NCBI GenBank assembly: GCA_003159675.1
Contig: PLQC01000181.1
Coordinates: 5,258-61,253, forward strand
Origin: Limisphaerales bacterium
GTDB taxonomy: Bacteria; Verrucomicrobiota; Verrucomicrobiia; Limisphaerales; BOG-1460
DNA length: 55,996 bases
Direction of reading: 5' to 3'
Position 1 is the stretch's first letter, and each line of letters begins with the position of its first letter. Under the pieces are notes generated by a model. The model had not been told where the DNA came from. It saw only the letters and a program-made list of their open reading frames with translations, and ran no database searches. Positions 24,545 through 43,110 of the stretch are shown piece after piece. The position numbers and the translations under genes are program-made.

Positions 24545-24682
24545 AACAAATTTTTCCCGGGACAACAGCCTGCGACCCGTCGAAACTCCTTTGGTGTAGC
24601 AGTTGCACAATCGGCATCTGGCGACGAATGCCCGGCAATCCAGTCTTGCCAGTCCACATCGAATCACACATAGTGGCCGTCA

Positions 24683-24747
24683 GGCAATGGGGTTTGCCGT
24701 CCCGCAAGGGAAAACCGCCTGAGAGCTTCAGAGCCGATAACTCCTAC
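24683..24747 (+). promoter_or_regulatory. Fluoride riboswitch 1 (crcB motif)
   Basis: The aptamer has the conserved layout GGCAATGGGGTTTGCC, then AAAACCGCC, then GAGCCGATAACTCCTAC. The pseudoknot GGGGTT with AACTCC is possible (one G-U pair). It leads to the CrcB-DUF190 remnant and the Ehr-enolase operon. The final CTCCTACC of the aptamer also forms the 5' arm of the terminator at 24743-24777, the expected arrangement for a fluoride ON switch. Confidence 0.92.
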
Positions 24748-24777
24748 CGAGACAATTCGTGTCGGCAGGTTTTTTTA
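24743..24777 (+). terminator. Riboswitch-controlled intrinsic terminator
   Basis: CCTACCGA (24743-24750) pairs with TCGGCAGG (24762-24769), with one A-C mismatch, and is followed directly by seven T residues. Its 5' arm is part of the aptamer, so fluoride-stabilised aptamer and terminator are mutually exclusive. The T-tract runs into the ATG at 24777. Confidence 0.75.
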
Positions 24778-25007
24778 TGCTCAACTATATCTTGGTCGGT
24801 GTGGGCAGCGCAATCGGTGGAGTCTCGCGTTTTTGGGCTTCGGGCGTCATTGCCAATCGCTTTGGCCAATCATTCCTGCCTTTGCTCGACGAGATGATGG
24901 GGGGCGGCCTGGTCACGCTGGAAAAGGCGCGGGTGATTGATTATCGCTCCGGCGAGGATGGAAAAGGAGACGGGACAGCAGCGGCGGTGGAACCGGAAAG
25001 CCGCTGA
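24777..25007 (+). pseudogene. crcB: CrcB N-terminus fused to DUF190 C-terminus (deletion remnant)
   Basis: The first 35 residues (MLNYILVGVGSAIGGVSRFW, then ASGVIANRFGQSF) are the start of a Fluc/CrcB fluoride channel, with the first membrane helix and the GGVSRF motif. The reading then jumps to LPLLDEMMGGGLVTLEKARV, which is the C-terminus of a DUF190 protein, a family usually encoded next to crcB. The reading frame stays open across the join. At least three membrane helices of CrcB and most of DUF190 are absent, so no channel can form from it. The most likely origin is an in-frame deletion between two adjacent genes, or an assembly collapse. It lies directly after fluoride riboswitch 1. Confidence 0.85.
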
Positions 25008-25053: not shown

Positions 25054-26004
25054 ATGTTCAACCGAATCCTGTTCAATCTGGTTCAAGTGTTCGTGGTCAT
25101 GGCCTTCGCGCCGCTGGCGTCCGGCGTTTTGAGCCGGCTCAAGGAAAGGGTGCAGTCCAAGCGCGGGCCGAGCATTTTCCAGCCGTATCGGGATTTGTGG
25201 AAGCTGTTTCACAAGGACGAAATCGTGTCGGAAGAAAGCTCGTGGATTTTCCGGTTCACGCCTTACATCGTTTTCGTCACGCCGATCTTTGTCGCGTTGC
25301 TGATCCCGGTGTTGACGAATTATCCGCTCTTTTTCGCGTTCATGGGCGATATGATCGGCGGTGGTTTCGTGCTGGCGCTGGGCGGGTTCTTCGCCACGCT
25401 CGCGGCGGTGGACACGGCCAATCCCTATGGACCCATGGGCGCGAGCCGCACCCGCATGGTGGGATTTCTGGCCGAACCGGTGTTCATGATCGTATTTTTC
25501 ACCGTTTCGTTCGTGGCCGGTTCGACGATTCCCTACATCGTCCAGGAAAAATGGGTGACCCCACTGGCAAATTTCTTCACGCCGGCGCACGTGCTGCTGA
25601 TGCTGGCGTTTCTCATGCTCATTCTGGCCGAAGGCGGGCGCATCCCGGTGGACAATCCGACGGGACATTTCGAACTGGCGATGATTGATGAATCCAAGTC
25701 GCTCGAATACTCCGGGCGCGGCTTCGCGCTGATGAAATGGGGCGGCCAGATGAAATTCTTTGTGCTCATGTGTATTTTCCTCAATGTGCTGGTGACACCG
25801 TGGGGACTTGCGGGCGGACAAACCATCGGCGCGGTGCTGCTGGCCATTCCGCTCGTGCTGTTCAAGATTTTCTGTTTTTTGCTGGTGCTGGTTGTCATCG
25901 AATCGTCGCTGTCCAAACTGCGGCTTTTCCGCATCACGGAGTTCTTGGGCGCGGCGTTCATTACGTCGGTGGCGGCGATGATCACGCGGGTCTTTTTGCC
26001 TTGA
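25054..26004 (+). CDS. Ehr complex subunit, NuoH/HyfC-like membrane protein
   Basis: The membrane subunit that links the hydrophilic arm to ion-pumping subunits in complex I and group 4 hydrogenases. It has 316 residues with about eight membrane segments. The conserved loop motifs are present: VQSKRGPSIFQPYRDLWKLF (first cytoplasmic loop) and AEGGRIPVDNPTGHFELAMI (second, with the acidic residue). The start ATG 25054 fits the family N-terminus FNRILFNLVQVFVVMAFAPL; in-frame upstream ATGs would overlap the remnant. It is the first intact gene of the fluoride operon. Confidence 0.9.
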   Translation: MFNRILFNLVQVFVVMAFAPLASGVLSRLKERVQSKRGPSIFQPYRDLWKLFHKDEIVSEESSWIFRFTPYIVFVTPIFVALLIPVLTNYPLFFAFMGDMIGGGFVLALGGFFATLAAVDTANPYGPMGASRTRMVGFLAEPVFMIVFFTVSFVAGSTIPYIVQEKWVTPLANFFTPAHVLLMLAFLMLILAEGGRIPVDNPTGHFELAMIDESKSLEYSGRGFALMKWGGQMKFFVLMCIFLNVLVTPWGLAGGQTIGAVLLAIPLVLFKIFCFLLVLVVIESSLSKLRLFRITEFLGAAFITSVAAMITRVFLP

Positions 26005-26016
26005 ACAAGGAATTCA

Positions 26017-26446
26017 GACACGAATTTCACGAATTTGCACGAATGAAAGAACTGCTTTTCAAAGAAGAAGCTTTTCAGCTTGTGGGCTTTTGCATGGAAA
26101 TCCACCGCGAACTTGGCAAGAAGCATGATGAAGTCATTTACAAAGATGCCTTCGTCCTCGAATTGAGTCGCGCGAAAATTCTTTTTTCGCGGGAAAAGCA
26201 TTACGAGGTGACTTACAAAGGCGTCATCTTGCCGCATCATTACCACGCCGATTTTGTGATTTGGGACAACATTCTCTTTGAGGCCAAGGCCGTTGAAAAA
26301 CTAGCCGATGCCCACGTCAAGCAGGTTTTGAATTATCTGGCCGCCTCAAAACTTCGTCTTGGACTGCTGGTCAATTTCGGCGGCGAATCTTTGGAATGGA
26401 AACGGGTGGTTTTATGAAATTCGTGTTAATTGGTGAAATTCGTGTC
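26017..26446. mobile_element. Gene cassette bounded by 28-bp inverted repeats
   Basis: The left end 26017-26044 (GACACGAATTTCACGAATTT...) and the right end 26419-26446 are inverted repeats that match at 25 of 28 positions by eye. They enclose only the GxxExxY gene. The left repeat runs into the start codon and the right one begins two bases after the stop. The cassette is inserted between two subunit genes of an otherwise tightly packed operon. Confidence 0.7.
26043..26417 (+). CDS. GxxExxY family protein (PD-(D/E)XK nuclease-like)
   Basis: This 124-residue protein matches the GxxExxY family: GFCMEIHRELGKKHDEVIY at the N-terminus (Lys in place of the motif Gly, Glu and Tyr kept), then HYHADFVIWDNILFEAKAVE, where Asp and the Glu-x-Lys pair form a PD-(D/E)XK-type site, and LAASKLRLGLLVNFG at the end. 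The cellular role is unknown. These genes are frequent in Verrucomicrobia and Bacteroidetes and are often bounded by short inverted repeats, as here. It interrupts the Ehr operon and is not expected to be part of the complex. Confidence 0.88.
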   Translation: MKELLFKEEAFQLVGFCMEIHRELGKKHDEVIYKDAFVLELSRAKILFSREKHYEVTYKGVILPHHYHADFVIWDNILFEAKAVEKLADAHVKQVLNYLAASKLRLGLLVNFGGESLEWKRVVL

Positions 26447-26481: not shown

Positions 26482-27192
26482 ATGAGTGAGACGACCAATC
26501 AATTATTGGAGAATCTGAACGCGCTGGCCGCTGGATTGTTTCTGCTCACCGCGTTCGGCATTGTGGCGATGCGGCAGGCGCGGGGCTGCCTGAATTTGTT
26601 CATCGTGCAATCGCTGCTGCTCGCGGCGTCCGCGGCGCTGTTGGGATTGCGCTACGGCTCCGGGCATCTTTACGGCGTGGCGATTGTGAACGTGATCAGC
26701 AAACCAATCATTGTTCCGTGGCTGTTGCGTCGGACGGCCCCTGCTGAAATTTACACGCGTCGCGAAATTGATCAGGTGCTGAACATTCCGACCGCGTTGC
26801 TCATCGCTTTGGCGCTGGCGATTCTGTCTTATTTCCTGGGACAACCATTATTGAACGCCGTCGCGCCGGAATTTCGCGGCCCGAACGTGCCGATTGGCAT
26901 CGCAGGACTATTGCTTGGCGCGTTCACGCTCACCGTGCGGCGCGAGGCGTTGCCGCTGCTCATCGGTTTGCTGGTGATGGAAAACGGCGCGTTTCTGGCC
27001 GGCATTTCCATCTCGCGTAATCTGCCATTGCTGGTGGAATTGGCCATCGCTACAGACGGTTTGATCATCGTGTTCATCAGCGGCGTGTTGATTCGCGCCG
27101 TTCAAAAACATGTCGGCACGACGGCGGTGGGTGAACTGGCGAGCTTGAAGGAAGCGGCTGCTGAACCGGCGGCAAAGGAGGCGGCCAAATGA
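26482..27192 (+). CDS. Ehr complex subunit, HyfE-like
   Basis: This 236-residue polytopic protein (about seven membrane helices) resembles HyfE, whose C-terminal half is related to NuoK. Markers are MRQARGCLNLFIVQSLLLA, VINVISKPIIVPWLLRR-like segment (ISKPIIVPWLL), and LPLLIGLLVMENGAFLAG with the NuoK-type glutamate in a helix. It probably forms part of the ion-translocating base. The stop overlaps the next start (ATGA at 27189-27192). Confidence 0.88.
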   Translation: MSETTNQLLENLNALAAGLFLLTAFGIVAMRQARGCLNLFIVQSLLLAASAALLGLRYGSGHLYGVAIVNVISKPIIVPWLLRRTAPAEIYTRREIDQVLNIPTALLIALALAILSYFLGQPLLNAVAPEFRGPNVPIGIAGLLLGAFTLTVRREALPLLIGLLVMENGAFLAGISISRNLPLLVELAIATDGLIIVFISGVLIRAVQKHVGTTAVGELASLKEAAAEPAAKEAAK

Positions 27193-28688
27193 GCGTCATA
27201 ATTATTTTGCTGCTTCCATTGGTTGCCGCCGCGCTGGTTTGCATTCCGTTCAAAAAGTATTGGGCAGCGGGCGTCACGGTCGTGTCTTCCGTGGCCGTTC
27301 TGGTGTTGGTCGCGCGCGTGGCCTGGCTGACTTCGGCAGGCGGTTCCATCACGTCGGCCTTGAAAATCGGGATGCTCAAATGGATTGCGGTGGACGGTTT
27401 GAGCGCCTTGATTCTGCTGTTGATTGCGTTTGTTGGAACCACGGCGGCAATTTTCTCCGTTGGTTACATGGCGCATGAAAACCTGAAGCCGTGGAAGCTG
27501 CGGCTCTATTATGCGAATTACAACCTGTTCGTTTTTTCCATGCTGGCCATTCCGGTTCTCGCCGAACCGACGCTGGTCTGGATTGTCGTCGAATTGACTA
27601 CGCTCTGTTCCGCGCTGCTGGTCTCATTTGACAACACACGCGAAGCGTTGGAAGCCGCGTGGAAATATGTGGTGCTCTCACTCATGGGCGCGGGAATGGC
27701 GCTGTTCGGCTTTCTGGTTTTATTCGCCGCGATGCAGGCGTCGGGCAGCGACGGCGCTTACACATGGGATGGACTGATCACCGCCGCGCCGATGATGCCA
27801 CCGGTTCTGTTGCAAACGGCGTTCCTGCTGATTTTGATTGGACTTGGAACGAAAGTCGGCCTCGTCCCGATGCATACTTGGTTGCCGGACGCCCACAGTC
27901 AAGCGCCCTCGCCAGTGTGCGCGTTGCTTTCCGGCATTGAAACCTCGGCGATACTTTATGTGATTCTGCGACTGTTTCCGGTGATGCAGGCTTCGCCCAA
28001 TTCTCATGCCGAAACGTGGGCGCTGGTTTTCGGCCTCATTTCGGTCGGCACCGCCGCGTTTTTGCTGCTGCAAGTGCGCGACTATAAACGGATGTTCGCC
28101 TTCTCCACCGTCGAACACATGGGCATTATTCTAACGGCGGTCGGACTCGGCGCATCGGCTGCCGGTTACAGCGCGATGCAACAAATTGTCAGCCATTCCG
28201 TGACAAAATCCTTTTGCTTCTTCGCTGCCGGAGCCGCGTTGGTGGCGGTGGGAACGCGCGAAATTGCAGCCGTGCGCGGGCTGATCCGCAAATCTCCCGC
28301 CACCGGCGTCGCGCTTGTTCTCGGCGGACTCGCCATCACCGGCGCGTCGCCCCTGGCGGTTTTCTTGAGTGAATTGTCCATTCTCAAAGCGGGTTTGACG
28401 CAAAAGGAATATGTGGCGACGGGTCTGCTCGCCATTTTCATCGTCATCGCGTTTTTCGGAATCATGCTGCACATCAACCGGATGGTTTTTGGCGCGCCCG
28501 AAAATAAAAATAACGGCCCGCCGGAGAAGAATCATTCCGAGCCGCAACCCGTTGAAACGTTTCACCTGCCCTTCAGTTGCCGGCTGGCGCTGATTCTGGC
28601 CGCTGTGCCGGTGCTGGTGCTCGGCGTTTACATTCCCAAACCGCTGCATGATTTGCTGACGCAAGCGGCAGCCGCCTTGACAAAATAA
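27189..28688 (+). CDS. Ehr complex subunit, HyfF/NuoN-like proton pump
   Basis: A 499-residue antiporter-like subunit with about 14 membrane helices. The family helix with the essential glutamate is seen in LVWIVVELTTLCSALLVSF. The charged lysine helix is in LIGLGTKVGLVPMHTWLPDA, followed by HSQAPSPVCALLSG. A further channel region is YKRMFAFSTVEHMGIILTAV. It probably moves protons or sodium ions. The coupled start with the preceding gene and the short gap (seven bases) to the next support one transcript. Confidence 0.93.
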   Translation: MSVIIILLLPLVAAALVCIPFKKYWAAGVTVVSSVAVLVLVARVAWLTSAGGSITSALKIGMLKWIAVDGLSALILLLIAFVGTTAAIFSVGYMAHENLKPWKLRLYYANYNLFVFSMLAIPVLAEPTLVWIVVELTTLCSALLVSFDNTREALEAAWKYVVLSLMGAGMALFGFLVLFAAMQASGSDGAYTWDGLITAAPMMPPVLLQTAFLLILIGLGTKVGLVPMHTWLPDAHSQAPSPVCALLSGIETSAILYVILRLFPVMQASPNSHAETWALVFGLISVGTAAFLLLQVRDYKRMFAFSTVEHMGIILTAVGLGASAAGYSAMQQIVSHSVTKSFCFFAAGAALVAVGTREIAAVRGLIRKSPATGVALVLGGLAITGASPLAVFLSELSILKAGLTQKEYVATGLLAIFIVIAFFGIMLHINRMVFGAPENKNNGPPEKNHSEPQPVETFHLPFSCRLALILAAVPVLVLGVYIPKPLHDLLTQAAAALTK

Positions 28689-28694: not shown

Positions 28695-30275
28695 ATGAAC
28701 CGCACCGAACTGAAGGAACAAATCGAAGGACGCTGGCCTGGGCGTGCGCAGTGCCGTTTCGATGCCGTGAATTCAATTTCCGAAATCATCTGCGCCCGCG
28801 CCGCGATGCCGGAACTTTGCGGACGGCTCTTTCTCGAGTGGAATTTCAGTTTTGCGGGCCTGGTCGTCGAGGAAGGCACGAGTGAATGGCAATTGCGCTA
28901 CTGCTTTTACGGCGAGAGCGAAGCCGGTTGGGTTCACGTCCTCGCAACCGCGCCGCTCGCCGAAAAAACCTTTCCGAGCATCGTCAAATTTGTTCACGCA
29001 GCGGACTGGCACGAGCGCGAGGCCGAGGATTTGTTCGGCCTGATTTTTGAAGGCCATCCGCGCCTCGGCGATTTTATTCTGCACGACGACGCCTGGCAGG
29101 AACACGTCGAGCCAATGTGCCGCCACTTCGACGCGCGCAAGGCGATGCAGCATCGCAAACCGGACGCCGACTGGCGGCCGCATCGCATTGTTCAGGAACC
29201 GGGCGCGTTCGTGATGCCCATCGGCCCGAAATTTTCCGGCGTCACAGAGTCGGTGCATTTCCTGCTCGAAACCGTCGGCGAAGACGTCATCCGCTCGACG
29301 CCGCGCCTGTTTTACAAATGGCGCGCGATTGAAAAGCTCGCGGAAGGCAAAACGGTGGATGAAGTGTTATTGCTCGCGGAAAGATTTGCCGCGACGACGG
29401 CTTTTGCTCACGGACTCGCTTTTTGCCAGGCCGTCGAAAAAATGTGCGACGCGAAAATTCCGGCGCGCGCGAACATTTTCCGCGTTTTTCTGGCGGAACT
29501 CGAACGGCTGCGGCAACACACCGGCGCGATTCAGGAAATTTGCGAGTCCACCGCGCTCGTCGTCGCCAACAGTCAGGCCGGGATTTTGGAGGAGGATTTA
29601 TTGCGAATTTCCGGCGAACTCACCGGCCATCGTTATTTGTTTGGCCTGCTCGCAATCGGCGGATTGCTGTGCGATTTGCCGGACGACGCCTGTGCAAAGG
29701 CGCTCGAACAATCGCAACAAACTCTGAAGCGACTGAACGAACTCGAAAAGCGATTGCGCATCTCCAGCAGTTTTCTGGATCGTCTCGAAGAAGTCGGCGT
29801 CGTCGCGCAGCGGAGCGCGCTGGTTTACGGCCTGCTCGGTCCGGTCGCGCGCGCATCGGGAATTGTCCGTGATTTGCGAAAGGCACAACCTTATTCCGGC
29901 TACGAACATTTTAATTTCGACGTGCCCAGCGAGCAGGAAGGCGACGGCTATGCGCGGTTGCGTATTTTGTTCGCCGAAGCGAGACAATCGGTTCGCATCA
30001 TGGAACAAGCCGTCGCCGCGTTGCAAAGTGGAAGCATCCGTGAACCGCTTCAACTTCACGCGGGTGCGGCGTTAGGCTGTGTCGAAGCTCCGCGCGGCGG
30101 CGCATTTCATTGGGTGCGTCTGGCCGACGGTGGACGGATCGCGCGTTATCGCATTGTTACCCCGTCGTTTGCCAACTGGCACGGCTTTCATCTCGCCGTC
30201 GAGAAATTCGCGTTTCAGGATTTTCCAATCATGCTCTCCACGTTCGATTTGTCCGTGGCCGAGAACGACCGATGA
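28695..30275 (+). CDS. Ehr complex large subunit, NuoCD/HyfG-like without NiFe ligands
   Basis: This 526-residue fusion has the 30-kDa (NuoC-like) domain at the N-terminus, with its signature HEREAEDLFGLIFEGHP (106-122), and the 49-kDa/hydrogenase large-subunit domain after it. In hydrogenases four cysteines hold the NiFe centre. Here the first pair is replaced: ERFAATTAFAH has Ala232 and Thr235 where ERxCGxCSFAH is expected. The second pair is replaced in the final DLSVAENDR, with Ser520 and Glu523 where DPCxxCxxR is expected. So it cannot bind the NiFe centre and is not a hydrogenase. It also lacks a reason to be called complex I, as no NADH module is present. This is the hallmark of Ehr complexes. 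Confidence 0.92.
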   Translation: MNRTELKEQIEGRWPGRAQCRFDAVNSISEIICARAAMPELCGRLFLEWNFSFAGLVVEEGTSEWQLRYCFYGESEAGWVHVLATAPLAEKTFPSIVKFVHAADWHEREAEDLFGLIFEGHPRLGDFILHDDAWQEHVEPMCRHFDARKAMQHRKPDADWRPHRIVQEPGAFVMPIGPKFSGVTESVHFLLETVGEDVIRSTPRLFYKWRAIEKLAEGKTVDEVLLLAERFAATTAFAHGLAFCQAVEKMCDAKIPARANIFRVFLAELERLRQHTGAIQEICESTALVVANSQAGILEEDLLRISGELTGHRYLFGLLAIGGLLCDLPDDACAKALEQSQQTLKRLNELEKRLRISSSFLDRLEEVGVVAQRSALVYGLLGPVARASGIVRDLRKAQPYSGYEHFNFDVPSEQEGDGYARLRILFAEARQSVRIMEQAVAALQSGSIREPLQLHAGAALGCVEAPRGGAFHWVRLADGGRIARYRIVTPSFANWHGFHLAVEKFAFQDFPIMLSTFDLSVAENDR

Positions 30276-30307: not shown

Positions 30308-31072
30308 ATGAGCCAATGGGTCATCAACGGACTTCGCACGGGAATCAAAACGACCGTGTATCCGCGCGATGCGGAACGCGCCGCCGGCGTCACGCCCGGA
30401 CTGCCGTGTGGCTGCGACGCCCCATCGCCATCGGCGGCTGCGGCGCTGGTGGATTGCTGTCCCACGCAAGTTTTCAGCCGCATCAACGGCAAAGTCTTGG
30501 CGGATGTTCGCCGCTGCATTCATTGCTACCGCTGCGTTCACGGCATCGAGCATCCGGCGGCCTGGCAACAAACCTACGAGTGGGCGACGGTTCGTGATTG
30601 GCAAAACGAATTTGATCAATCCTTCAAACACTCCATCCACATTTGCGTCGTGGACGCGGGCGATTGCGGCGCGTGCCTGAACGAAGTCAAGCAACTCAAT
30701 AATCCCTACTACAACATGCACCGGCTGGGATTTTTCATCACGCCTTCGCCGCGCCACGCCGATGTACTGCTCGTCGTCGGGCCGGTGACGGATCACATGC
30801 GCGTCGCGTTGAAAAAAATATACGATGCGATGCCAACGCCCAAACGGGTTGTTGCCGTCGGTGCGTGCGCCCTGACCGGCGGTGTCTTCGCGAACAGTTT
30901 TGTTTGCGTGAAAGGATTGGCCGAAGTGCTGCCGGTGGACGTGGAAGTGCCGGGAAACCCACCGCCACCACTGGCAATTTTGCATGGCCTGCTGGTGGCG
31001 GCCGGACGCAAATCGCCAGCGTCGCTCATGGCCTCGCCATCGGCGATTGAGACCAATGCGGCGAAATTCTGA
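30308..31072 (+). CDS. Ehr complex small subunit, NuoB/HyfI-like with ferredoxin-like N-terminus
   Basis: This 254-residue protein fuses an N-terminal iron-sulfur segment (CCP at 50-52; RCIHCYRCV, Cys70, Cys73, Cys76) to a NuoB/hydrogenase small-subunit domain. The proximal-cluster ligands are Cys120 and Cys123 (GDCGACLNE) and Cys187 (VGACALTGG). The fourth expected ligand, the Cys of the PGCPP motif, is Asn217 in VPGNPPPP. A [4Fe-4S] cluster may therefore be incomplete or have an unusual ligand. The gene follows the large subunit by 32 bases and overlaps the next start (TGATG at 31070-31074). Confidence 0.9.
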   Translation: MSQWVINGLRTGIKTTVYPRDAERAAGVTPGLPCGCDAPSPSAAAALVDCCPTQVFSRINGKVLADVRRCIHCYRCVHGIEHPAAWQQTYEWATVRDWQNEFDQSFKHSIHICVVDAGDCGACLNEVKQLNNPYYNMHRLGFFITPSPRHADVLLVVGPVTDHMRVALKKIYDAMPTPKRVVAVGACALTGGVFANSFVCVKGLAEVLPVDVEVPGNPPPPLAILHGLLVAAGRKSPASLMASPSAIETNAAKF

Positions 31073-33228
31073 TGGAAACACCGACGCTCATTCTCGCTTT
31101 TTTTGTCCTATGCGGCATGGGTATTTTGCTGTCGCTGGCAGCTCCGGTTTCGCGACAGGGTAATGTGCTGGCGTGGTTCGGCTGCCTCGCGGCGATTGCT
31201 TTGGTGTTGGCCGGCGCAAACGCGTTGCTTGCGGGCGAAACATTCAACCAGCCGCTGTGGTCATTGCCGGGATTGGCGACGCTTACGGTGAGCCCGGACC
31301 GGCTTTCGGCGGTGTTTATTTGCGTCACGGGCTTGGTGCTTTTTCCCGCTTCGATTTTTGCTGGTGGCGAACTGAGGCGGGAATCACATCATCACTATGA
31401 TTGTGTGTTCACCGTGCTGCTGCTCGGCTTGTATGCGTCCATTGTTTTAATTTTTATCGCAGGTGATGCGCTGCTGTTCCTGCTGGCATGGGAAGTCATG
31501 TCCATCCTTTGCTGGCTGCTCATCTTGTTGGGGCGCGACCGGGAAAACGACCGCGTCGGCGCGGGGTATCTCTTGCTCGCAATGGGTGAAGCTGGAACGC
31601 TGGCGGCGGCGCTGGGTTTTCTCCTGCTCGCGGTCCATGCCGGTTCGCTGGATTTTGCAACGATCAAATCGTCCGCTTCGGGATTGAGCGCGGGCGCGCA
31701 CTGGACAATTTTCTTGCTTTCGTTTTTTGGTTTCGGCGTGAAGGCCGGACTCGTGCCGGTGAATTTCTGGCTGCCGCGCGCCTACACCGCCGCGCCACGC
31801 GCGTTTGTTCCCGTGCTGGCCGGCGCGACGTTGAATCTTGGGCTGTATGGAATTTTGCGCGTCAATGCCGATCTCATGCCGGCGACACACGCGGGGCCGG
31901 GACTGGTCGCACTCGTCTTCGGAACCATTTCCGCATTGCTCGGAATTCTCTACGCGACCACGGACAATGATCTCAAAATGATGCTGGCGCATAGTTCGAT
32001 TGAAAACGTCGGCATCATCGTCGCCGGTTTTGGCGCGGGAATGGTTTTCGTCGCAACGAATCATCCAGCGCTGGCGGCGATTGCGTTCGTTGCGGGGTTG
32101 TATCATTTGATCAACCACTCGCTTTACAAGACGCTGTTGTTTTTTGGCGTTGGCGCAGTGGAAACTCAAACCGGCACGCGTGACATGGACAAACTCGGCG
32201 GCTTGATTAAATGGATGCCGTTGACTGCCCTCGCTTTTCTTGCCGGCACGCTTTCCATCGCCGCGCTGCCGCCGTTCAACGGTTTCGTCAGCGAATGGCT
32301 CACGCTGCAAACGATGCTGCGCTCGGCGGAATTGTCTTCAAGCGGAGCAAAACTGGTTTTTGCCCTGTGTGGCGCCGGGCTCGCGCTCACGGCGGCGCTG
32401 GCGGTGACGTGCTTCGTTAAAGTTTTTGCGATGAGCTTTTTGGGAATGCGCCGGCTGGACGAGGAACACCGAGTAGCTGAGCCAAAGTCTGGCACGCTGG
32501 CGCCAATGGCCATTCTCGCCGCGCTATGCCTCGCGTTCGGTGTGTTGCCAACTTATGTCATTCCGGCCCTGGGCTCGGCGTTAAATCCATTGGCCGGAGC
32601 CAGCGCCGCCGACGCGCTGGTGCCGCCGTTCTTTGCGTCAAACCCGGCGCATCAGGAATTGCCGCCTGTCTTCGTCGAGGATTTCCACAACTTGGGCGCA
32701 CAGGTCGGACAAAACTTTTTGCCCGGACGCGGCCTGGTCGTGCTGCATCGCGGTGGCGTGGAAAATCCGGTCGTTTTCGCCATGTCCACCTCCTACATGC
32801 TCGTCGCGCTCATCGCGTTGTTGGCATTCACGTACATCATCATCCGTTTGTGGCTGACGCGCAGCAGGAAATTGGCGCGCCGCGCCTGTTGGGACGGCGG
32901 CGTGCGGCGTTTGCTGCCGGAGATGACTTACACGGCGACGGGTTTTTCCAATCCGGTGCGGGTGATTTTCGATGCCATTTTCCGGCCCACGACAGTTGAG
33001 GACACGCGCGAGACGGTGGCGGAACATTTCCGCACCGCCATCCGGCGCGAAAAAGAGCGCGTTCACCTCGTGGACAAACTGGTTTTTCATCCGGTCAAAA
33101 CGGTGACGCTGGGTTTTGCGCGCGGTCTGGCGGCGATGCACCACGGGCGGTTCAACGCTTATGCCGCCTACGCGCTTTTGACGCTGTTGGTCGTGTTGAT
33201 TGTGTTTCTCCTGTTTCAATCGTCGTGA
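31072..33228 (+). CDS. Ehr complex subunit, HyfB/NuoL-like proton pump, copy 1
   Basis: A 718-residue antiporter-like subunit with about 15 membrane helices and a long C-terminal extension. Family motifs: LFLLAWEVMSILCWLLILLG (glutamate helix), FGFGVKAGLVPVNFWLPRAY (lysine helix), HSSIENVGIIVAGFGAGMVF, and INHSLYKTLLFFGVGAVE. The extension (from about 520) contains an amphipathic stretch (PGRGLVVLHRGGVENP), another helix and a basic segment RRLLPEMTYTATGFSNPVRV. It is closely similar to the next gene over its whole length. Confidence 0.93.
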   Translation: METPTLILAFFVLCGMGILLSLAAPVSRQGNVLAWFGCLAAIALVLAGANALLAGETFNQPLWSLPGLATLTVSPDRLSAVFICVTGLVLFPASIFAGGELRRESHHHYDCVFTVLLLGLYASIVLIFIAGDALLFLLAWEVMSILCWLLILLGRDRENDRVGAGYLLLAMGEAGTLAAALGFLLLAVHAGSLDFATIKSSASGLSAGAHWTIFLLSFFGFGVKAGLVPVNFWLPRAYTAAPRAFVPVLAGATLNLGLYGILRVNADLMPATHAGPGLVALVFGTISALLGILYATTDNDLKMMLAHSSIENVGIIVAGFGAGMVFVATNHPALAAIAFVAGLYHLINHSLYKTLLFFGVGAVETQTGTRDMDKLGGLIKWMPLTALAFLAGTLSIAALPPFNGFVSEWLTLQTMLRSAELSSSGAKLVFALCGAGLALTAALAVTCFVKVFAMSFLGMRRLDEEHRVAEPKSGTLAPMAILAALCLAFGVLPTYVIPALGSALNPLAGASAADALVPPFFASNPAHQELPPVFVEDFHNLGAQVGQNFLPGRGLVVLHRGGVENPVVFAMSTSYMLVALIALLAFTYIIIRLWLTRSRKLARRACWDGGVRRLLPEMTYTATGFSNPVRVIFDAIFRPTTVEDTRETVAEHFRTAIRREKERVHLVDKLVFHPVKTVTLGFARGLAAMHHGRFNAYAAYALLTLLVVLIVFLLFQSS

Positions 33229-33272: not shown

Positions 33273-35444
33273 ATGAACCCCGGCACAAATTCAATTGATT
33301 TGAATGTCGGCTGGCCGCTCGCTTTGGTCTTCGCCTTGTGCGGCGCGGGCGCGGTGCTGGGAATTTTTGTTTCCGAACGGCGGATTCCCGCGCTGCTGGC
33401 CTGGGTTGGCTCATTGGCTGCGTTGCTGGCGTTGTGGGTCGGCGGAAGCGTGCTGTGGTCGGGGCAAACTTTTCAAGGCGAACTCTGGACGATTCAGTCG
33501 GTGGGAACTCTCAGGGTCTCGCTTGACCGTTTGGCGGCGCTCTTTTTGTTCGTGGCGGCGGTGGTGGTGCTGGCCAGTTCCATTTTTTCGGCGAGTTATC
33601 TAAAACGATATTCAGGACAGTACAGCCTGAAAACCTTCAATGCCTGGTATCTGCTGCTGTTTGCCTCAATGGCGCTGATTTTGATCGCGAACGACGTGTT
33701 GCTGTTTCTGCTGGCTTGGGAGGCGATGTCCATTTTGAGTTATTTGCTCGTCAATTTCGAGCACGAGCGAGCCGAGAGCAGCCGCGCGGGCTATCTCATG
33801 CTGGCGATGGGCGAGGCGGGATTTATGGCGGTCGCTCTGGTATTTCTGTTCCTGGCAGTCAAAGCGGGAACGCTGGAATTTCCGGCGCTCAAAACAGCGG
33901 GCGCGAGCTTGGGCGCGGCCGCACGCTGGCTCGTGTTTCTGCTGACCTTTTTTGGATTCGGCGTCAAGGCGGGTCTTGTGCCCGTCAATACCTGGTTGCC
34001 GCGCGCGCATCCCGCCCCTCCGGCGAATGTGTCCGCGATTCTCTCCGGCGTGATCTTGAACCTGGGGCTTTACGGAATCATTCGCGTCAACCTCGACCTT
34101 GTGCCCTTGACCATGATCGGGGCGGGCGTCGTTGTGCTGGTGGTTGGGACGATTTCAGCGCTGGTGGGAATCCTTTACGCGACCACCGAAAATGACCTCA
34201 AGGCCATGCTTGCCCACAGTTCCATCGAAAACATCGGCATTGTGACCGCCGGTCTGGGCGCAGGGTTGATTTTCACGGCCTATGGACGGCCGGTGTTGGC
34301 AGGCATTGCGTTCATCGCGGCCTTTTATCACATGATCAACCATTCGATGTATAAAGCGCTGCTGTTTCTCGGCGCGGGAACGGTGGATGACCGCGCCGGA
34401 ACCCGCGATCTGGACAAGCTGGGCGGACTGATCCGCGCGATGCCGTGGACGGCGGGCGCTTTTCTGGTCGGCGCGCTGGCGATTTCCGCGCTGCCGCCGT
34501 TCAATGGATTTGTCAGCGAATGGCTCACACTGCAAACGATGCTGCGCTCGGCGGAACTGCCTTCAACGCTGGTAAAAATTGCGTTCGCGTTGTGCGGCGC
34601 AGGTCTGGCGCTCACGGCGGCATTAGCGGTGACGTGCTTCGTGAAAGCCTTTGCGATGGGATTCCTCGGCATGTCACGCTCCGAGCAGGCCGCGCAAGCC
34701 GTCGAGGCGAAAACTTCATCCATCGCGCCGATGCTGTTGCTGGCCGCGCTTTGTTTGCTGCTGGGCGTGCTGCCGACGTATGTGATCCCGGCGTTGAATT
34801 ACGAGTTGCAGCCGTTCGTGGATGCGAGCGCCGCCGATGCGCTGGTGCCGCCATTTTTTGCCGCCAATCCCACACACGACACTTTGCCGCCCGCGTTCGT
34901 CGCGGACTTTCACGATTTGGGAGCGCAGGTTGGACAACATGTTTTGCCCGGACGCGGGCTGGTCGTGCTGCATCGCGGTGGCGCGGAAAATCCGGTGGTC
35001 TTTGCCATGTCCACCTCTTACATGCTGGTAACGCTGATCGGCCTGCTGATTCTCACTTACGTCGTGATCCGGGTGTGGCTGACGCGCCGCCGGCGACTGG
35101 CGCGGCGGACTTGTTGGGACGGAGGCATTCGGCATTTGCTGCCGGAGATGACTTACACGGCGACCGGCTTCTCCAATCCTGTGCGGGTGGTTTTCCAGGC
35201 GATTTTCCGCCCGACCATTGTGGAGGACACGCGCGAAACAGTGGCGGAACATTTTCGCACCGCCATTCGCCGCCAATCCGAAGCTGTGCATATCGTGGAT
35301 CGGCTCGCGCTCCGGCCTGCGCGTGAACTATCGCTGGCCATCGCCCGTTCTTTGGCGCAAATGCACCACGGCCAACTCAACGCTTATGTGGCCTACGTGC
35401 TGCTCGCGCTGCTCGTGGCGCTGTTTTTGAACCTGCTATTTTGA
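33273..35444 (+). CDS. Ehr complex subunit, HyfB/NuoL-like proton pump, copy 2
   Basis: This 723-residue protein is a tandem paralogue of the preceding gene: the same segment order, the same C-terminal extension, and long shared strings such as EWLTLQTMLRSAEL and SNPVRV. The charged helices are kept (LFLLAWEAMSILSYLLVNFE; FGFGVKAGLVPVNTWLPRAH). The two copies may give the complex an extra ion channel, as in complexes with several antiporter-like subunits. The gap to enolase is only 34 bases. Confidence 0.93.
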   Translation: MNPGTNSIDLNVGWPLALVFALCGAGAVLGIFVSERRIPALLAWVGSLAALLALWVGGSVLWSGQTFQGELWTIQSVGTLRVSLDRLAALFLFVAAVVVLASSIFSASYLKRYSGQYSLKTFNAWYLLLFASMALILIANDVLLFLLAWEAMSILSYLLVNFEHERAESSRAGYLMLAMGEAGFMAVALVFLFLAVKAGTLEFPALKTAGASLGAAARWLVFLLTFFGFGVKAGLVPVNTWLPRAHPAPPANVSAILSGVILNLGLYGIIRVNLDLVPLTMIGAGVVVLVVGTISALVGILYATTENDLKAMLAHSSIENIGIVTAGLGAGLIFTAYGRPVLAGIAFIAAFYHMINHSMYKALLFLGAGTVDDRAGTRDLDKLGGLIRAMPWTAGAFLVGALAISALPPFNGFVSEWLTLQTMLRSAELPSTLVKIAFALCGAGLALTAALAVTCFVKAFAMGFLGMSRSEQAAQAVEAKTSSIAPMLLLAALCLLLGVLPTYVIPALNYELQPFVDASAADALVPPFFAANPTHDTLPPAFVADFHDLGAQVGQHVLPGRGLVVLHRGGAENPVVFAMSTSYMLVTLIGLLILTYVVIRVWLTRRRRLARRTCWDGGIRHLLPEMTYTATGFSNPVRVVFQAIFRPTIVEDTRETVAEHFRTAIRRQSEAVHIVDRLALRPARELSLAIARSLAQMHHGQLNAYVAYVLLALLVALFLNLLF

Positions 35445-36783: not shown

Positions 36784-36954
36784 TCGTTGGAATCAGGAGC
36801 GCCGTTGCTTTGATTGCACCGCTCGGCAAACCCCATTGCACATGAGCGGCATGTGGTCGGCGAGAAAGCCTGCGGTTCCAATAACCCCACGCTACCCGGA
36901 GAAAGCGTACACTGCGCTTGGCTTGCTTGGAGCAGCATGGTAGGTTGTTTTCAA

Positions 36955-37034
36955 GGCAATGGAGTTTGCCTCCCTCCGGGGAAACCGCCCTCCGGCTGAT
37001 GACTCCTACCGGAAAGACCTTTGTGTCACGGTAG
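36955..37034 (+). promoter_or_regulatory. Fluoride riboswitch 2 with sequestering hairpin
   Basis: The aptamer (36955-37010) is near-consensus: GGCAATGGAGTTTGCC, GGAAACCGCC, then GGCTGATGACTCCTACC. The pseudoknot GGAGT with ACTCC is perfect. CTACCG (37006-37011), the aptamer end, can pair with CGGTAG (37029-37034), seven bases before the ATG at 37041. There is no T-tract, so control may be at translation or through another mechanism. It serves the NTPase, mini-ORF and dynamin unit. Confidence 0.95.
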
Positions 37035-37040: not shown

Positions 37041-37784
37041 ATGCAAGCGAGAGCTTCGACAAGCGATGTGAGACTCGCGATCCCTTTCGTGGGTCGTGAA
37101 AGGGAAATCGAACGGCTTCGCCAGTTGCACAAGCGGCGCAGCCATGTGCTGATTCTCGGCGCGGAAGGCGTGGGCAAATCGGCGCTCGTGGCGCGCTTGC
37201 ATCATTCGCTCAACCTGCGCGTTTGCGCGGCATCGGAACGCCTCAGTGAGATTTGCGAAGCGTTGGAGCGCGAATTTGATTTGGAAGCCGGTGACCTTCA
37301 TCTTGTCCGGCGCAAGAATCGCGTGCTGAAGTCGCTCAAAGGAACGAAGCGCGCCGTGGTCTTTGACGGGGCAAGCTGGACGACTCCGAAACTCAGCGGG
37401 TTCATCGAAGGCGTCAGCGAGCGTGTGCCGGTGTGGTTGTGCGCGCGGTCGGAGCATCCGTGAGACATCGGCCGCATCTGGCCGTTGCTGGTGCGATTCG
37501 AGCACGTCGAGTTGAAGCCCTTTCATCCCGGAGAAACCCAAATGCTGGTGGAAGCGGCCGTGCGTGGCGGCAGCGTGCCGGCGGACACGTCGAACATTGC
37601 GGCGTGGCTGCACCGTCGCGCGACGGGAAACCCGAAGATATTGTGCGAATTGCTGGAGGAGATTTCGCGCGGCCACTACGACTTGAGCAATGCCCATGCG
37701 CTGCGCCGCCTGGACCTTGACCGCCGTATCCACGAGATTTTCCCGATAGCGGCCGACAGCAAGAACGCAGGGAGGCTCAAATGA
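37041..37784 (+). pseudogene. P-loop NTPase interrupted by an in-frame TGA
   Basis: The frame encodes an AAA/STAND-like ATPase: GREREIERLRQLHKRRSHVL, Walker A GAEGVGKSALVARLHHSL, Walker B-like AVVFDGASWTT, then a helical part (NIAAWLHRRATGNPKILCEL). A TGA at 37461-37463 splits it after residue 140; the same frame then continues for 107 more codons with unbroken family-like sequence (IGRIWPLLVRFEHVELKPF). A CGA-to-TGA change would explain it. Possible readings are a recent nonsense mutation, a sequencing error or readthrough. Selenocysteine is unlikely, as no cysteine or selenoprotein context is seen. It lies directly after riboswitch 2. Confidence 0.75.
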
Positions 37785-37843
37785 ATGAGACGAGGGTCAT
37801 CCTTGTGGGTGGCGCGCTGGCACTCGCTTTCGGCTCACAATGA
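37781..37843 (+). CDS. 20-codon ORF coupled to both neighbours
   Basis: MNETRVILVGGALALAFGSQ starts within the NTPase stop codon (ATGA at 37781-37784) and ends within the dynamin start (ATGA at 37840-37843). The two overlaps are the same type of coupling used elsewhere in the operon. The product looks like the first membrane segment of a longer protein, so it may be a deletion remnant or a true mini-protein. It is below usual gene-finder limits. Confidence 0.45.
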   Translation: MNETRVILVGGALALAFGSQ

Positions 37844-39867
37844 ACGAGAACCATCAACGGCATCTGCTCTCCACGTTCCAACACGTGGACAATCTCCTTT
37901 CCGAAGCGGAGCAGATCATGGCTTCCGCCGGGTCGGCCTCGCCGTTTCAGGAATATTCGCAGGACACCACGCCCATTCAGCGCAAGGTGACGCACGATTA
38001 TGTCGTTCGCGTGCGCGAAGCCATGCATCGCATCCTCGATGAGTTAAACATTCCGCTGAGACGGCCGATTTCCGGCGCGCTGTGGGCCGCGCGCTGCCAT
38101 TTGAACTTTGCAGGAATTGGCATCGCCGAAATCGCACCGGAGCACATGCGCGGCTACGGGCAGCTTTCAGACGAGGACGCGCGGGCGATCGACCGGATCG
38201 TTGCGGAACTGAATGCGGAGTTGAATCGCGTCAGCGACTATCTCGCCCAGGGAACGACAGCGGATTTGCAGGCTCGCCTTCTGCGGCTCGAACAGACTCG
38301 CGACGAAGTGAAGCTCTTGCGCGAATTGGATCGCATCATCGCCGCGCACGGCCTCGTCGAATTTCGCACCGCGCTGGTGACATTGCTGGATCGGCTCGAA
38401 ACCACCTCCTTTGAAATCGGCGTTTTCGGTCGCGTCAGTTCGGGAAAATCGTCACTGCTCAATCACCTGCTCGAACAGGGTGTTCTTCCGGTCGGCGTGA
38501 CTCCGGTGACCGCCGTGCCGACGCGAATCAGCTTCGGCCGGCAGCCGCACGCAATCATCGAGTTTGTGGAAGGCAAGCCGCAGGAAGTCGAGATGTCGCG
38601 CCTGGTTGAGTTTTCCACGGAACAACAAAATCCTGCCAATGCCAAGCATGTCACGCGCATTCAAGTTCTGGTTCCGGCCAGGCGGCTGCGCGAGGGCGTG
38701 ACGTTTGTGGACACGCCGGGGCTGGGTTCGCTGGCGACCACAGGCGCGGAAGAAACCGTGGCGTACTTGCCGAAATGCGATCTCGGCATTGTGCTGCTCG
38801 ACGCCGGGTCGGCTTTGAACCACGAAGACCTTGTAGTCGTGCAATCGCTCTGCCGCGCCGGAGCAACGGCGATGGTGCTGATCAGCAAAGCGGATTTGCT
38901 CACGCCGCCGGACCGCCAGCGCATGGTGGATTATGTCCGCCAGCATTTACTTTCCGAAGCGAATCTGGATTTGCCCGTGCATCTCGTCAGCGTGGTCGGC
39001 GCGGACGCACAGCTTTGTGAACATTGGTTCGAGAGCGAACTTAACCCGATGCTGGAATCGCATCGCGAGGCGACCGCTGCTTCGCTTAAGCGCAAGATTG
39101 GCTTGTTGCGGGAAGCGGTGATGGATGCGCTTCGGGTCCGCCTCGACGCTCCGCGCGGGCCACAGACAGCTCCCAAGGCTGGTGATTTGAACCAAGGCGC
39201 CGAGGCATTGCGCGGCGCGAGCGCGATTCTGGAATCGGCTGAGAAGGAGGGTCGAACCCTTGGTTACAACACGCGAGCGCTTGCCCCATCCGCGCTGCAA
39301 GCGGTCGCAACCGACATCGCATCCGCCTGGCTCAATGGCGCAAATCCGGCCCCGGATGTGACCGGGATTTTCTCGGCGTCTTTGAAGCAATTTCTGGCGC
39401 AGGTGAGCGCGGCGTTCGTTCAATCCGTTGAAGAAGTCCGAGGGCGGCTCGCCAGCTCGCTGGAGCAAGCCCACGCCGTATCCGGCTCGAGGCGCGGGCC
39501 GCCGGAGGAATTGCCGAAGGCGGCAGGACTGCCAATCATGGATTCCTCGCCGCTGGCGGCGCGGCTGAAGCTGCAGAAACCTCCCCTCCTTGCGCTGCTG
39601 GGCCGGGGCGAGTTGCGGCGTTTTGCTGAATCCAAACTTTGCGGGCAGTTGGAGGATTCGCTTGCCGAGTTCTTCAACCTCGCCGGCAAGCGGCTGGAAC
39701 AATGGCACAACGATGCGCTTGCGGAATTGCGTGATGCCTTCGACGCCCGTGCGGGAGTTTATCGTGCCGTGCTCGCCCAAGGCCAGCGCGCAACGGCTGA
39801 AAACGTGAGTGAAGCCGACGTCACAAGAGACTTGTTCGCGCTGGAGAATTGGGGGTCTTCGCAGTAA
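37840..39867 (+). CDS. Dynamin-like GTPase 1
   Basis: This 675-residue protein has a helical N-terminal region (1-190), a GTPase domain with P-loop GRVSSGKSSLLN near residue 197, switch threonines in PVGVTPVTAVPTRI, G3 motif DTPGLGS near 290 and G4 variant SKADL near 349, then a long helical stalk and a paddle-like hydrophobic stretch (QKPPLLALLGRGELRRF). It lacks transmembrane helices. Bacterial dynamin-like proteins bind and remodel or repair membranes, often as hetero-pairs; a second one is encoded at 41258. Expression is expected to follow fluoride through riboswitch 2. Confidence 0.9.
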   Translation: MNENHQRHLLSTFQHVDNLLSEAEQIMASAGSASPFQEYSQDTTPIQRKVTHDYVVRVREAMHRILDELNIPLRRPISGALWAARCHLNFAGIGIAEIAPEHMRGYGQLSDEDARAIDRIVAELNAELNRVSDYLAQGTTADLQARLLRLEQTRDEVKLLRELDRIIAAHGLVEFRTALVTLLDRLETTSFEIGVFGRVSSGKSSLLNHLLEQGVLPVGVTPVTAVPTRISFGRQPHAIIEFVEGKPQEVEMSRLVEFSTEQQNPANAKHVTRIQVLVPARRLREGVTFVDTPGLGSLATTGAEETVAYLPKCDLGIVLLDAGSALNHEDLVVVQSLCRAGATAMVLISKADLLTPPDRQRMVDYVRQHLLSEANLDLPVHLVSVVGADAQLCEHWFESELNPMLESHREATAASLKRKIGLLREAVMDALRVRLDAPRGPQTAPKAGDLNQGAEALRGASAILESAEKEGRTLGYNTRALAPSALQAVATDIASAWLNGANPAPDVTGIFSASLKQFLAQVSAAFVQSVEEVRGRLASSLEQAHAVSGSRRGPPEELPKAAGLPIMDSSPLAARLKLQKPPLLALLGRGELRRFAESKLCGQLEDSLAEFFNLAGKRLEQWHNDALAELRDAFDARAGVYRAVLAQGQRATAENVSEADVTRDLFALENWGSSQ

Positions 39868-39932
39868 GCTCGCGCGCATCTGCGCCAATTAGACGCGCTT
39901 GCCAATCAGGTGCACAATGTTACTTTATGAGT

Positions 39933-40015
39933 GGCAATGGAATCTGCCTCCCGTCACGCGGGAAATCGCCTTGGGCTGATGACTCCTACCGAAAAGACGC
40001 ATTATGTCACGGTAG
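39933..40015 (+). promoter_or_regulatory. Fluoride riboswitch 3 with sequestering hairpin
   Basis: The aptamer (39933-39990) reads GGCAATGGAATCTGCC, GGGAAATCGCC, then GGGCTGATGACTCCTACC. The pseudoknot GGAATC with GACTCC has one A-C mismatch, and AACCGCC is AATCGCC, so affinity may be altered. CTACCG (39986-39991) pairs with CGGTAG (40010-40015) just before ATG 40022. The leader end (GTCACGGTAGCAAGT) is nearly the same as that of riboswitch 2, pointing to duplication. Confidence 0.92.
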
Positions 40016-41257: not shown

Positions 41258-42967
41258 ATGTGTCAAACCGGCAACATTCTCGACCGTGTGTCCGGCGTGG
41301 CCGCCGAGTTGAAGCTGGTAAACCTCCAGCCGCAAATTGCCGCGTGCCGAAAACAATTCAATGGCAGCATCCGCGGTATTGACGTGGCCGTTTTCGGCCG
41401 TTTCAAGGCCGGCAAAAGTTCTTTTCTCAATCACCTCGCTGGCCGCACCGTGCTGCCCATCGGCGTTCTGCCACTAACGGCCATAGTCACACGACTGAGT
41501 TACGGTCCGGCGGAACGCGCCGAAGTGCAATTTCTGAACGGCGAAACAAAAGAGATCCGGCTGGACGAAATCTGCCTTTATGTCGCTGAAAACGAAAATC
41601 CCAACAACCAAAAAAAGGTCGCCTCCGTCGTTATCCAGTTGCCCGCGCTCAGGCCGCTGGCGCCGCTGGAATTTGTGGACACGCCCGGACTGGGCAGCGC
41701 GTTCGCGCACAATACCGAAACTACGTTTCAGTGGCTGCCCAACGTCGGCGCGGCGCTGGTCGCGGTCAGTTGCGACGCGCCACTGTCGGAGCGTGACCTG
41801 GGGCTGCTGGAGGAATTGCGCCGCCACACGCCGAAAATTGTTTTGCTGCTGACGAAAGCGGATTTGCTCACGGAGTCTCAGCGCGCCGAAGTGCTCGCGT
41901 TTGTTCGCAAACACCTCCGCGAGAAATGGGAAACGGACTGGCCGGTTTTCTTTTACTCGATCCGGCCGGAGCAGGCGGAATTAAAAGTCGAACTTGAACA
42001 AAAGTTGTTGTCGCCGCTGATTCGCAATCGCGGCGAAACCGCCGACGCCATTGCGCGGCACAAACTTCTTTCTTTGCTGAGTCAAACGCTCAACTATTTG
42101 CAAATGGCGCACGCTGCCGCCACGCTGGCCGAATCGTCGCGTCAGGCGTTGCGCGAGCATCTGGCCGAGGAGCGGGGGCAATTCGATTTGCTCCGCTCCG
42201 AGTTGAACGTGCTCTCGCGCGAGTGGTCGGCCAATGCCCTGGATTTCTATCTCGCCAAACTTGAGCCGGCGCAAACGGCGTTGCAGTCCAGGATCACGAC
42301 AGGCTTGCGTGAACAATTTCCGCGATGGAATCTGCGCCTGCCGCCGATGCTGGAAGCCTGGCGCGAATGGCTCGGCATTTTTCTCAAACGCGAATTGAGC
42401 GAAGTGTCACGCTCACAACGGACGGTGTTCTGCGAACCGCTGCACAAAGCGCGCGCGCACCTCACGCGCACGCTACGCGCTTTTCATGACCGGCTCGCCG
42501 AACACGTGAAATCCGCGCTGGGCGTTACGCTGACTCCACACGAGTTCGTTCTCGAAGTCCGCGAGCCAACCGCGCCGCCGGTGGACGTCGCCTTCGCCTT
42601 CGACGCGGCATTCACCACGATAGGCTGGCTGATTCCACTGACGCTGTTCCGAAATCCAATCGAGCGCGTGCTGCTACGAAAAGCCCGTTGGGAAGTGCAG
42701 AAAAACCTTTCGCGCGTCGCCGCCGACTGGCGCGATCGGGTGGCCAAAATCATCAACGAATTAACAGGGCAAGCCGAGAAGCAGGCCCTGGATGAGTTGG
42801 CCGCTCTCGAACAAACACTGGCGCAAACGGCGTCCAAAGCACCCGAACTGGCAAAGGCAATAGCTGAGTTGGAAGAATTCCAAAAGCGATTGCGCTCGCC
42901 AGAAAGCGGAACAGCGGTGAGCGTGAACAGTTCCGCGCCAATATCGGTTGCAGATGCAGCGCGATGA
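41258..42967 (+). CDS. Dynamin-like GTPase 2
   Basis: This 569-residue protein has P-loop GRFKAGKSSFLNHLAG near residue 47, switch region VLPLTAIVTRLSYG, G3 DTPGLGSAF near 142 and TKADLLTESQ (G4) near 203, then helical stalks. A hydrophobic stretch near residues 445-465 (FAFDAAFTTIGWLIPLTLF) may be a membrane-inserting paddle. The two GTPases share layout but not close sequence, as in bacterial hetero-dynamins. The 99-base gap from the preceding gene carries no aptamer, so it is probably read through from riboswitch 3. Confidence 0.9.
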   Translation: MCQTGNILDRVSGVAAELKLVNLQPQIAACRKQFNGSIRGIDVAVFGRFKAGKSSFLNHLAGRTVLPIGVLPLTAIVTRLSYGPAERAEVQFLNGETKEIRLDEICLYVAENENPNNQKKVASVVIQLPALRPLAPLEFVDTPGLGSAFAHNTETTFQWLPNVGAALVAVSCDAPLSERDLGLLEELRRHTPKIVLLLTKADLLTESQRAEVLAFVRKHLREKWETDWPVFFYSIRPEQAELKVELEQKLLSPLIRNRGETADAIARHKLLSLLSQTLNYLQMAHAAATLAESSRQALREHLAEERGQFDLLRSELNVLSREWSANALDFYLAKLEPAQTALQSRITTGLREQFPRWNLRLPPMLEAWREWLGIFLKRELSEVSRSQRTVFCEPLHKARAHLTRTLRAFHDRLAEHVKSALGVTLTPHEFVLEVREPTAPPVDVAFAFDAAFTTIGWLIPLTLFRNPIERVLLRKARWEVQKNLSRVAADWRDRVAKIINELTGQAEKQALDELAALEQTLAQTASKAPELAKAIAELEEFQKRLRSPESGTAVSVNSSAPISVADAAR

Positions 42968-43011
42968 ATCAGAGTTTTCCGCCCGATGACTGTGCGAGGC
43001 GACATCGGGGC

Positions 43012-43057
43012 GGCGCGATGGAGTTCGCTGAACGTCCTCGGGACTGATGACTCCTAC
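43012..43057 (+). promoter_or_regulatory. Fluoride riboswitch 4
   Basis: Compact aptamer with GCGATGGAGTTCGC, TGAACGTCC and GGACTGATGACTCCTAC. The pseudoknot GGAGTT with GACTCC is possible with one U-G pair. It lies 45 bases after the dynamin 2 stop and 54 bases before the FGE-like gene. The shortened middle region makes it the least canonical of the four. Confidence 0.85.
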
Positions 43058-43058
43058 T

Positions 43059-43092
43059 GAAGCCAAAAGCTCCGGTGGGAGTTTTTTGCTTC
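43059..43092 (+). terminator. Terminator of riboswitch 4
   Basis: GAAGCCAAAAGCTCC (43059-43073) pairs with GGAGTTTTTTGCTTC (43078-43092) at 13 of 15 positions with loop GGTG; a six-T run lies inside the 3' arm. Its closeness to the aptamer end (two bases) is typical of an expression platform, though no aptamer base is shared. Confidence 0.6.
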
Positions 43093-43110
43093 ATCGAGAA
43101 CAAGCTGCCA

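Follow-up and report, generated by a model that had tools for sequence, protein, structure and literature searches.

What is the work of a complex that resembles a formate hydrogenlyase, has none of the ligands of the NiFe site and is encoded behind a fluoride riboswitch? The question is raised by an operon in the window, by which is meant the whole stretch of 55,996 nucleotides from a Limisphaerales bacterium that was analysed here. Ehr complexes, among which a preliminary description had placed it, are widespread. Those lacking NiFe ligands are known from earlier work, with function unknown (PMC6349859, PMC10284858, PMC7304191).

Genes annotated as "formate hydrogen lyase" were described downstream of the crcB RNA motif in 2010 (PMC2864571). 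A 2024 review placed formate hydrogen lyase among the enzymes most commonly associated with fluoride riboswitches, and its presence there was taken to suggest a move towards anaerobic fermentation (PMC11139923). The genes described below have the same RNA (RF01734) and belong to the same annotation class (PMC2864571, PMC11139923), but none of those examined here can be a formate hydrogenlyase. A literature search of freely readable papers found none joining the fluoride riboswitch with an Ehr complex devoid of NiFe ligands.

Organization of the locus

The operon and the fluoride island in which it lies are mapped in Table 1. The putative terminator was absent from the output of the consensus scan because of its mismatches. 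The DUF190 tail of the remnant that follows it was identified through similarity to the intact DUF190 genes of three related loci (L009, L011 and L012). Relatives do not have the GxxExxY-like gene at the junction of hycD and hyfE, and it is probably not part of the complex. Antiporter-type membrane subunits are present, three subunits of the operon matching PF00361. Neither an NADH module (NuoE, F, G) nor a formate dehydrogenase was found in the window operon; formate dehydrogenase was likewise not found among the recurrent neighbours of the relatives' operons, and no gene for an electron donor or acceptor recurred across the operons examined.

Table 1. Features of the operon and the surrounding fluoride island, in positions of the window
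Feature	Position	Strand	Basis
Fluoride riboswitch aptamer 1 (RF01734)	24674..24753	+	38.0 bits; gathering score 34
Putative intrinsic terminator, CCTACCGAGAC-AATTC-GTGTCGGCAGG-TTTTTTT	24743..24776	+	Sequence reading; overlaps 3' end of aptamer 1
Remnant, CrcB N-terminus fused to DUF190 C-terminus	24777..25007	+	NCBIfam CrcB, first 32 positions only
HycD/NuoH-like membrane subunit	25054..26004	+	PF00146; start set from homologues
GxxExxY-like small gene between hycD and hyfE	26043..26417	+	Sequence reading
HyfE-like (NuoK-type) membrane subunit	26482..27192	+	NF008556; PF00420 weak
HyfF-like antiporter-type subunit	27189..28688	+	PF00361, NF005044, pump residues
HycE/NuoCD-like large subunit, no NiFe ligands	28695..30275	+	PF00346, PF00329, PF00374
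HycG/NuoB-like small subunit, N-terminal one-cluster Fe-S domain, Asn217 at proximal ligand 4	30308..31072	+	PF01058
HyfB-like antiporter-type subunit, copy 1	31072..33228	+	PF00361, NF005086
HyfB-like antiporter-type subunit, copy 2	33273..35444	+	PF00361, NF005086
Enolase, second copy of the genome	35479..36783	+	PF00113; other copy on contig C109
Fluoride riboswitch 2	36946..37015	+	53.9 bits
Dynamin-like GTPase, same fluoride island	37840..39867	+	PF00350
Fluoride riboswitch 3	39924..39995	+	44.9 bits
Fluoride riboswitch 4	43005..43063	+	29.4 bits, E 5.9e-6; under Rfam cut-off

The window also holds an ATPase-like gene 3' of riboswitch 2 (37041-37784) with an apparent frame break near 37460, a further dynamin-like GTPase (41258-42967), and a gene with an FGE-sulfatase (formylglycine-generating-like) domain preceded by the sub-threshold riboswitch (43005-44145). 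Both HyfB copies are adjacent here, unlike those of two relatives, in which a second copy lies away from the operon and behind its own fluoride riboswitch (L009, 18642-20964; L010, 18934 onward).

Relatives and phylogeny

Thirty-three relatives, all of them metagenome-assembled genomes, were obtained from a one-genome-per-species collection and form clade A with the window. Their titles name Verrucomicrobiota, Pseudomonadota, Planctomycetota, Actinomycetota, Nitrospirota, Acidobacteriota, Myxococcota, Spirochaetota, Campylobacterota, Chlamydiota and others, and the order of the six genes and their intact frames are conserved across more than ten phyla. Clade B, about one third identical to clade A, consists of four operons in mobile islands on plasmids of Burkholderia multivorans, B. 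cenocepacia, Caballeronia and Mycobacterium branderi. When plasmids were searched for proteins nearer to the M. branderi large subunit, nothing above 37% identity was obtained.

All riboswitch-linked complexes fall into one clade, A plus B, in the large-subunit tree (99/95) and in the HycD tree (100/100). The large-subunit tree, from a set with no curated Ehr reference sequences, groups this clade with other NiFe-less complexes (100/97). The analysis supports the earlier assignment to the Ehr complexes, for which no reaction is established (PMC6349859, PMC10284858). With these the window clade shares group 4-like subunits, an antiporter-type membrane arm and the absence of NiFe ligands (PMC6349859, PMC10284858). 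It is set apart by the fluoride riboswitch and by a small subunit with a fused one-cluster domain, and it shows neither the formate dehydrogenase nor the NuoEF partner of the FDH-Ehr complex proposed earlier (PMC6349859).

The empty NiFe site of the large subunit

The large subunit is encoded by an intact open reading frame of 526 amino acids and resembles NuoC plus NuoD, or HycE. Its closest solved relative by sequence is HycE of formate hydrogenlyase (7z0s_E), which is also the top PDB match of its AlphaFold2 model (TM 0.90). The complex shares this fold and its subunit types with E. coli formate hydrogenlyase and hydrogenase 4 (Hyc, Hyf). In a MAFFT alignment with HycE, HyfG and NuoCD, residues A232, T235, S520 and E523 fall at C241, C244, C531 and C534 of E. 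coli HycE, the NiFe-ligating cysteines. These are the four replacements that the preliminary description had named. None of the four sites is a cysteine in the window protein, nor is any in the 34 sequences that comprise the window and its 33 relatives: position 232 is A, S, N or T, position 235 is T, A or S, position 520 is Ser in 33 of 34 (Ala in the other), and position 523 is always Glu (34/34). The flanking residues had also been described as kept. This applies to R230 (34/34), H239 (33/34) and the final DR (D525, 34/34; R526, 32/34), but the first Asp, D518, is frequently G, N or A among relatives.

The window protein stops at ...ENDR, whereas HycE and HyfG run on past DPCYSCTDR; it lacks the C-terminal extension that a maturation protease cleaves off in group 4 hydrogenases. 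The window operon encodes no second NiFe subunit. The genome has five 49-kDa-type loci, two of which, group 4-like and elsewhere on contig C7 (L050), retain the CxxC motif and are possible true energy-converting hydrogenases.

The position of the quinone-binding His of complex I (Nqo4 His38, NuoCD H224) is T, A, S or Y in clade A, and that of the quinone Tyr, as read from the alignment, is a small residue. E185, kept in 33/33, corresponds to HycE Glu193 and Mbh Glu21L, a proton shuttle that sits where Nqo4 has His38 (PMC11228991); H239 corresponds to Mbh His75L. Since both the NiFe ligands and the quinone His and Tyr are absent, the complex, as far as its sequence tells, is not a hydrogenase, and it is not a quinone reductase of the canonical kind either, yet it is not a wreck. 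The catalytic metal site is gone, and the proton machinery is largely retained.

Iron-sulfur clusters of the small subunit

The fused N-terminal domain has a single [4Fe-4S] motif, of which Cys 51, 70, 73 and 76 are invariant (33/33 in clade A). The proximal cluster is more variable. Among 33 clade A small subunits, four proximal cysteines are present in 10 and three in 23, the window included, and never fewer. The missing residue is the last one in 21 (N, H, Q or G) and the second, replaced by Val, in two. The apparent three-Cys state of L011 was left out of these counts because its gene is frame-broken. Two proximal cysteines are invariant (34/34). On the large-subunit tree, at least three separate losses are needed to account for the three-Cys state. 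A structure model of the small subunit was of moderate confidence and was left out of the analysis.

A three-Cys proximal [4Fe-4S] cluster, which the motifs indicate for most members, recalls the sulfane sulfur reductase MBS of Pyrococcus furiosus, in which such a cluster is the catalyst (PMC7684303). The two differ in that clade A misses the last Cys or the second of the CxxC, while MBS misses the first; MBS also retains two NiFe cysteines.

M. branderi, a member of the fluoride clade whose operon is under a fluoride riboswitch, has lost all four proximal cysteines (NDDA) and kept the N-terminal four, a further difference from MBS. The redox path would therefore be dispensable in at least one member, and catalysis at the proximal cluster, considered as a universal mechanism, is weakened. 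Allomeiothermus, which is outside the fluoride clade and for which no riboswitch was found, has likewise lost all four proximal and kept the N-terminal cysteines. The two genes are at L061 9432-10223 (M. branderi) and L063 9263-10141 (Allomeiothermus).

The membrane arm

Homologues of NuoCD, NuoB, NuoH, NuoK and NuoL/M/N link the complex to respiratory complex I, and most pump residues are kept. HyfF has the TM7 Lys (K222) and the TM12 Glu (E395) in 34/34 and the TM5 Glu in 29/34; in HyfB the corresponding counts are 29/29 (K224), 29/29 (E408) and 27/29. HycD keeps E162, E228 and E239 in 31/31, the counterparts of NuoH E157, E220 and E228. Other residues have changed. E216 and E218 of the quinone-side loop of NuoH are replaced in HycD, and the position of NuoM K265 is Asn in 29/29 HyfB sequences, with an uncertain alignment of TM8; the TM8 Lys/His columns of the antiporter-type subunits read Asn or Thr/Ser, under the same uncertainty. 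In view of K265 and E216/E218, pumping competence is predicted to be incomplete. From complex I the window complex differs also in having no NADH module and no quinone His or Tyr, and in a CxxC that replaces the tandem Cys.

Conservation is highest in HycD, with a mean pairwise identity between loci of 0.76 compared with 0.56-0.58 for the other five subunits, the redox subunits being among these lower values. The order is opposite in E. coli Hyc and Hyf (large subunit 0.725, NuoH-like subunit 0.525), and Ehr complexes without a riboswitch show no difference between the two subunits (42% and 41%). The window clade is thus distinguished from Hyc and Hyf by an inverted order of conservation as well as by the absence of NiFe ligands, C-terminal extension and formate dehydrogenase. 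As a descriptive comparison of identities, this seems to indicate that constraint has shifted away from the catalytic subunits and onto the subunit that couples them to the membrane arm.

The link to fluoride

Aptamer 1 lies upstream of the window operon on the same strand and scores above the gathering threshold. It overlaps the putative terminator, and seven T stand directly 5' of the ATG of the decayed crcB, the layout of an ON switch; terminators frequently overlap the crcB RNA motif (PMC2864571, Weinberg et al.). All four fluoride aptamers of the 4.1-Mb genome, one of them below cut-off, are within 19 kb at this locus.

Every clade A operon with a visible start has a fluoride riboswitch upstream (31/31, window included). 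In the 30 loci from relatives the aptamer is on the same strand and in 28 it is above cut-off, those of L026 and L041 being sub-threshold at 32.6 and 31.2 bits against 34. The clade A operon of survey genome G231 has one upstream, as do all four clade B operons. A dynamin-like GTPase gene stands between aptamer and hycD in L018, L022 and L026, and in M. branderi a NUDIX gene comes first and the Ehr operon after. The 388 surveyed genomes of the phylum include two clade A loci, both with the aptamer; none was found near the 28 other NuoH-like loci (E < 0.1, within 1.5 kb, a short flank for operons that start with hyfB). Four full operons of other Ehr complexes have no fluoride riboswitch either.

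The preliminary description regarded the link to fluoride as a new clue. The link does hold throughout the clade; its first publication, however, dates from 2010 (PMC2864571). What is new here, as judged from the sequences, is that the genes are a clade of empty-site Ehr complexes whose NuoH-like subunit is unusually conserved and whose proximal iron-sulfur cluster has eroded repeatedly.

The company of the complex is also informative. Enolase is sensitive to fluoride (PMC11139923), which the second enolase copy in the operon fits. L011 and L012 retain the order riboswitch-crcB-DUF190-ehr, and crcB has decayed in the window, L009 and L010, in whose genomes, as draft assemblies, no match to CrcB was found. 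CrcB is present in the genomes of 20 of the 33 relatives; the complex therefore does not simply take its place, and a role as strict CrcB substitute is weakened. A search for a CLC-type fluoride exporter showed two CLC proteins in the window's genome.

Dynamin-like GTPases recur in the fluoride islands of the window and of many relatives' loci, several directly 3' of a fluoride riboswitch; no role for them in fluoride tolerance was found in the literature. Proteins with MutS domain V occur in the islands of L014 (9547-12695, a tandem pair behind a fluoride riboswitch) and L017 (3184-5307). On a conjugative plasmid of B. cenocepacia (L062, 1-17317), an island with six riboswitches holds the Ehr operon, a pyrophosphatase, a HAD hydrolase, a dynamin family protein and CrcB.

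Possible function of the complex

The reading we favour, with a probability of roughly 0.4, is that the locus encodes an ion pump induced by fluoride, a member of the complex I/group 4 hydrogenase superfamily that would have given up H2 chemistry and be driven by a ferredoxin-dependent redox step. Its firmer part, which we consider quite probable, is a homeostatic role as a proton or cation pump serving pH and membrane potential; the riboswitch and the kept pump residues point to it, as do the neighbouring genes, enolase and, in clade B, pyrophosphatase and CrcB. Na+/H+ antiporters are the commonest class under fluoride riboswitches after exporters (PMC11139923). The ferredoxin-driven step is the weaker part. 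Against the favoured reading stand the loss of the proximal cysteines in M. branderi, the lack of a recurrent donor or acceptor gene, the replaced membrane-arm residues and the peak of conservation in HycD. The preliminary description had also proposed an ion-moving device switched on by fluoride; the predicted ion-moving function is well supported by the conserved pump residues, and the clade-wide riboswitch agrees with the presumed mode of switching.

In this favoured scheme, fluoride would stabilize the aptamer, block the terminator and turn the operon on. Electrons of low potential, with ferredoxin as their most likely source, would enter at the N-terminal cluster and pass to the proximal cluster. 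From the open iron of that cluster they may go to a small acceptor lodged in the vacated NiFe cavity, as in the sulfane reductase MBS. Coupled protonation at E185 and H239 would then drive export of protons, or of a cation, through HycD, HyfE, HyfF and HyfB. Export may offset the acid load and the loss of membrane potential caused by entry of HF, and the spare enolase may offset inhibition of glycolysis. For clade A, the preferred fuel is electron transfer that is driven by ferredoxin and ends at the proximal cluster.

A close rival, in itself somewhat doubtful, is a redox-free Mrp-like transporter with HycD as its functional core. The peripheral arm would serve as a cap, either structural or Fe-S-gated, and the membrane arm would exchange H+ for Na+ or K+, or carry H+ and F- together, driven by existing gradients. 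This rival would better explain M. branderi, still under its riboswitch with no proximal cysteines, and the exceptional conservation of HycD, which is reversed in Hyc and Hyf and flat in Ehr complexes without a riboswitch; the decay of crcB in the window, L009 and L010, with no CrcB match in their genomes, also favours it. The invariant N-terminal cysteines (33/33) and two proximal ones (34/34), however, are hard to understand unless electrons are transferred or the clusters serve a structural purpose, and a proton-shuttle Glu has been retained in the former active site.

A ferredoxin (or other donor):quinone oxidoreductase, resembling photosynthetic NDH-1 with an altered quinone site, is unlikely. 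The complex I-like fold and membrane arm and the three or four proximal cysteines of clade A suit such an enzyme, but the His and Tyr positions and NuoH E216/E218 do not, and M. branderi has no cluster with which to reduce quinone. We think it improbable, too, that a descendant of complex I is abandoning or has abandoned electron transfer, fully so in M. branderi, and that its NuoH-like subunit has become the centre of a fluoride- or HF-linked proton or ion transporter able to replace a lost CrcB.

Loss of ligands and clusters and carriage on mobile plasmid islands could mark a decaying, functionless relic; gene order and intact frames shared by more than ten phyla, a large subunit with 98 invariant positions, a HycD that is 76% identical and a riboswitch in every visible case make this very improbable. 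A functional NiFe hydrogenase, formate hydrogenlyase included, suggested by annotation tradition and nearest fold and already rejected in the preliminary description, is ruled out by the loss of all four ligands (34/34) and of the C-terminal extension and by an operon with no formate dehydrogenase.

Implications

The formate hydrogenlyase label is corrected for the genes examined here, and for these the anaerobic-fermentation interpretation (PMC11139923) cannot hold. The genes so labelled in studies of fluoride probably include an ion pump instead. With an invariable riboswitch for a known ion, the Ehr complexes gain a physiological cue that can be tested. How a redox pump sheds its fuel line may be revealed by the clade's stepwise loss of cluster ligands.
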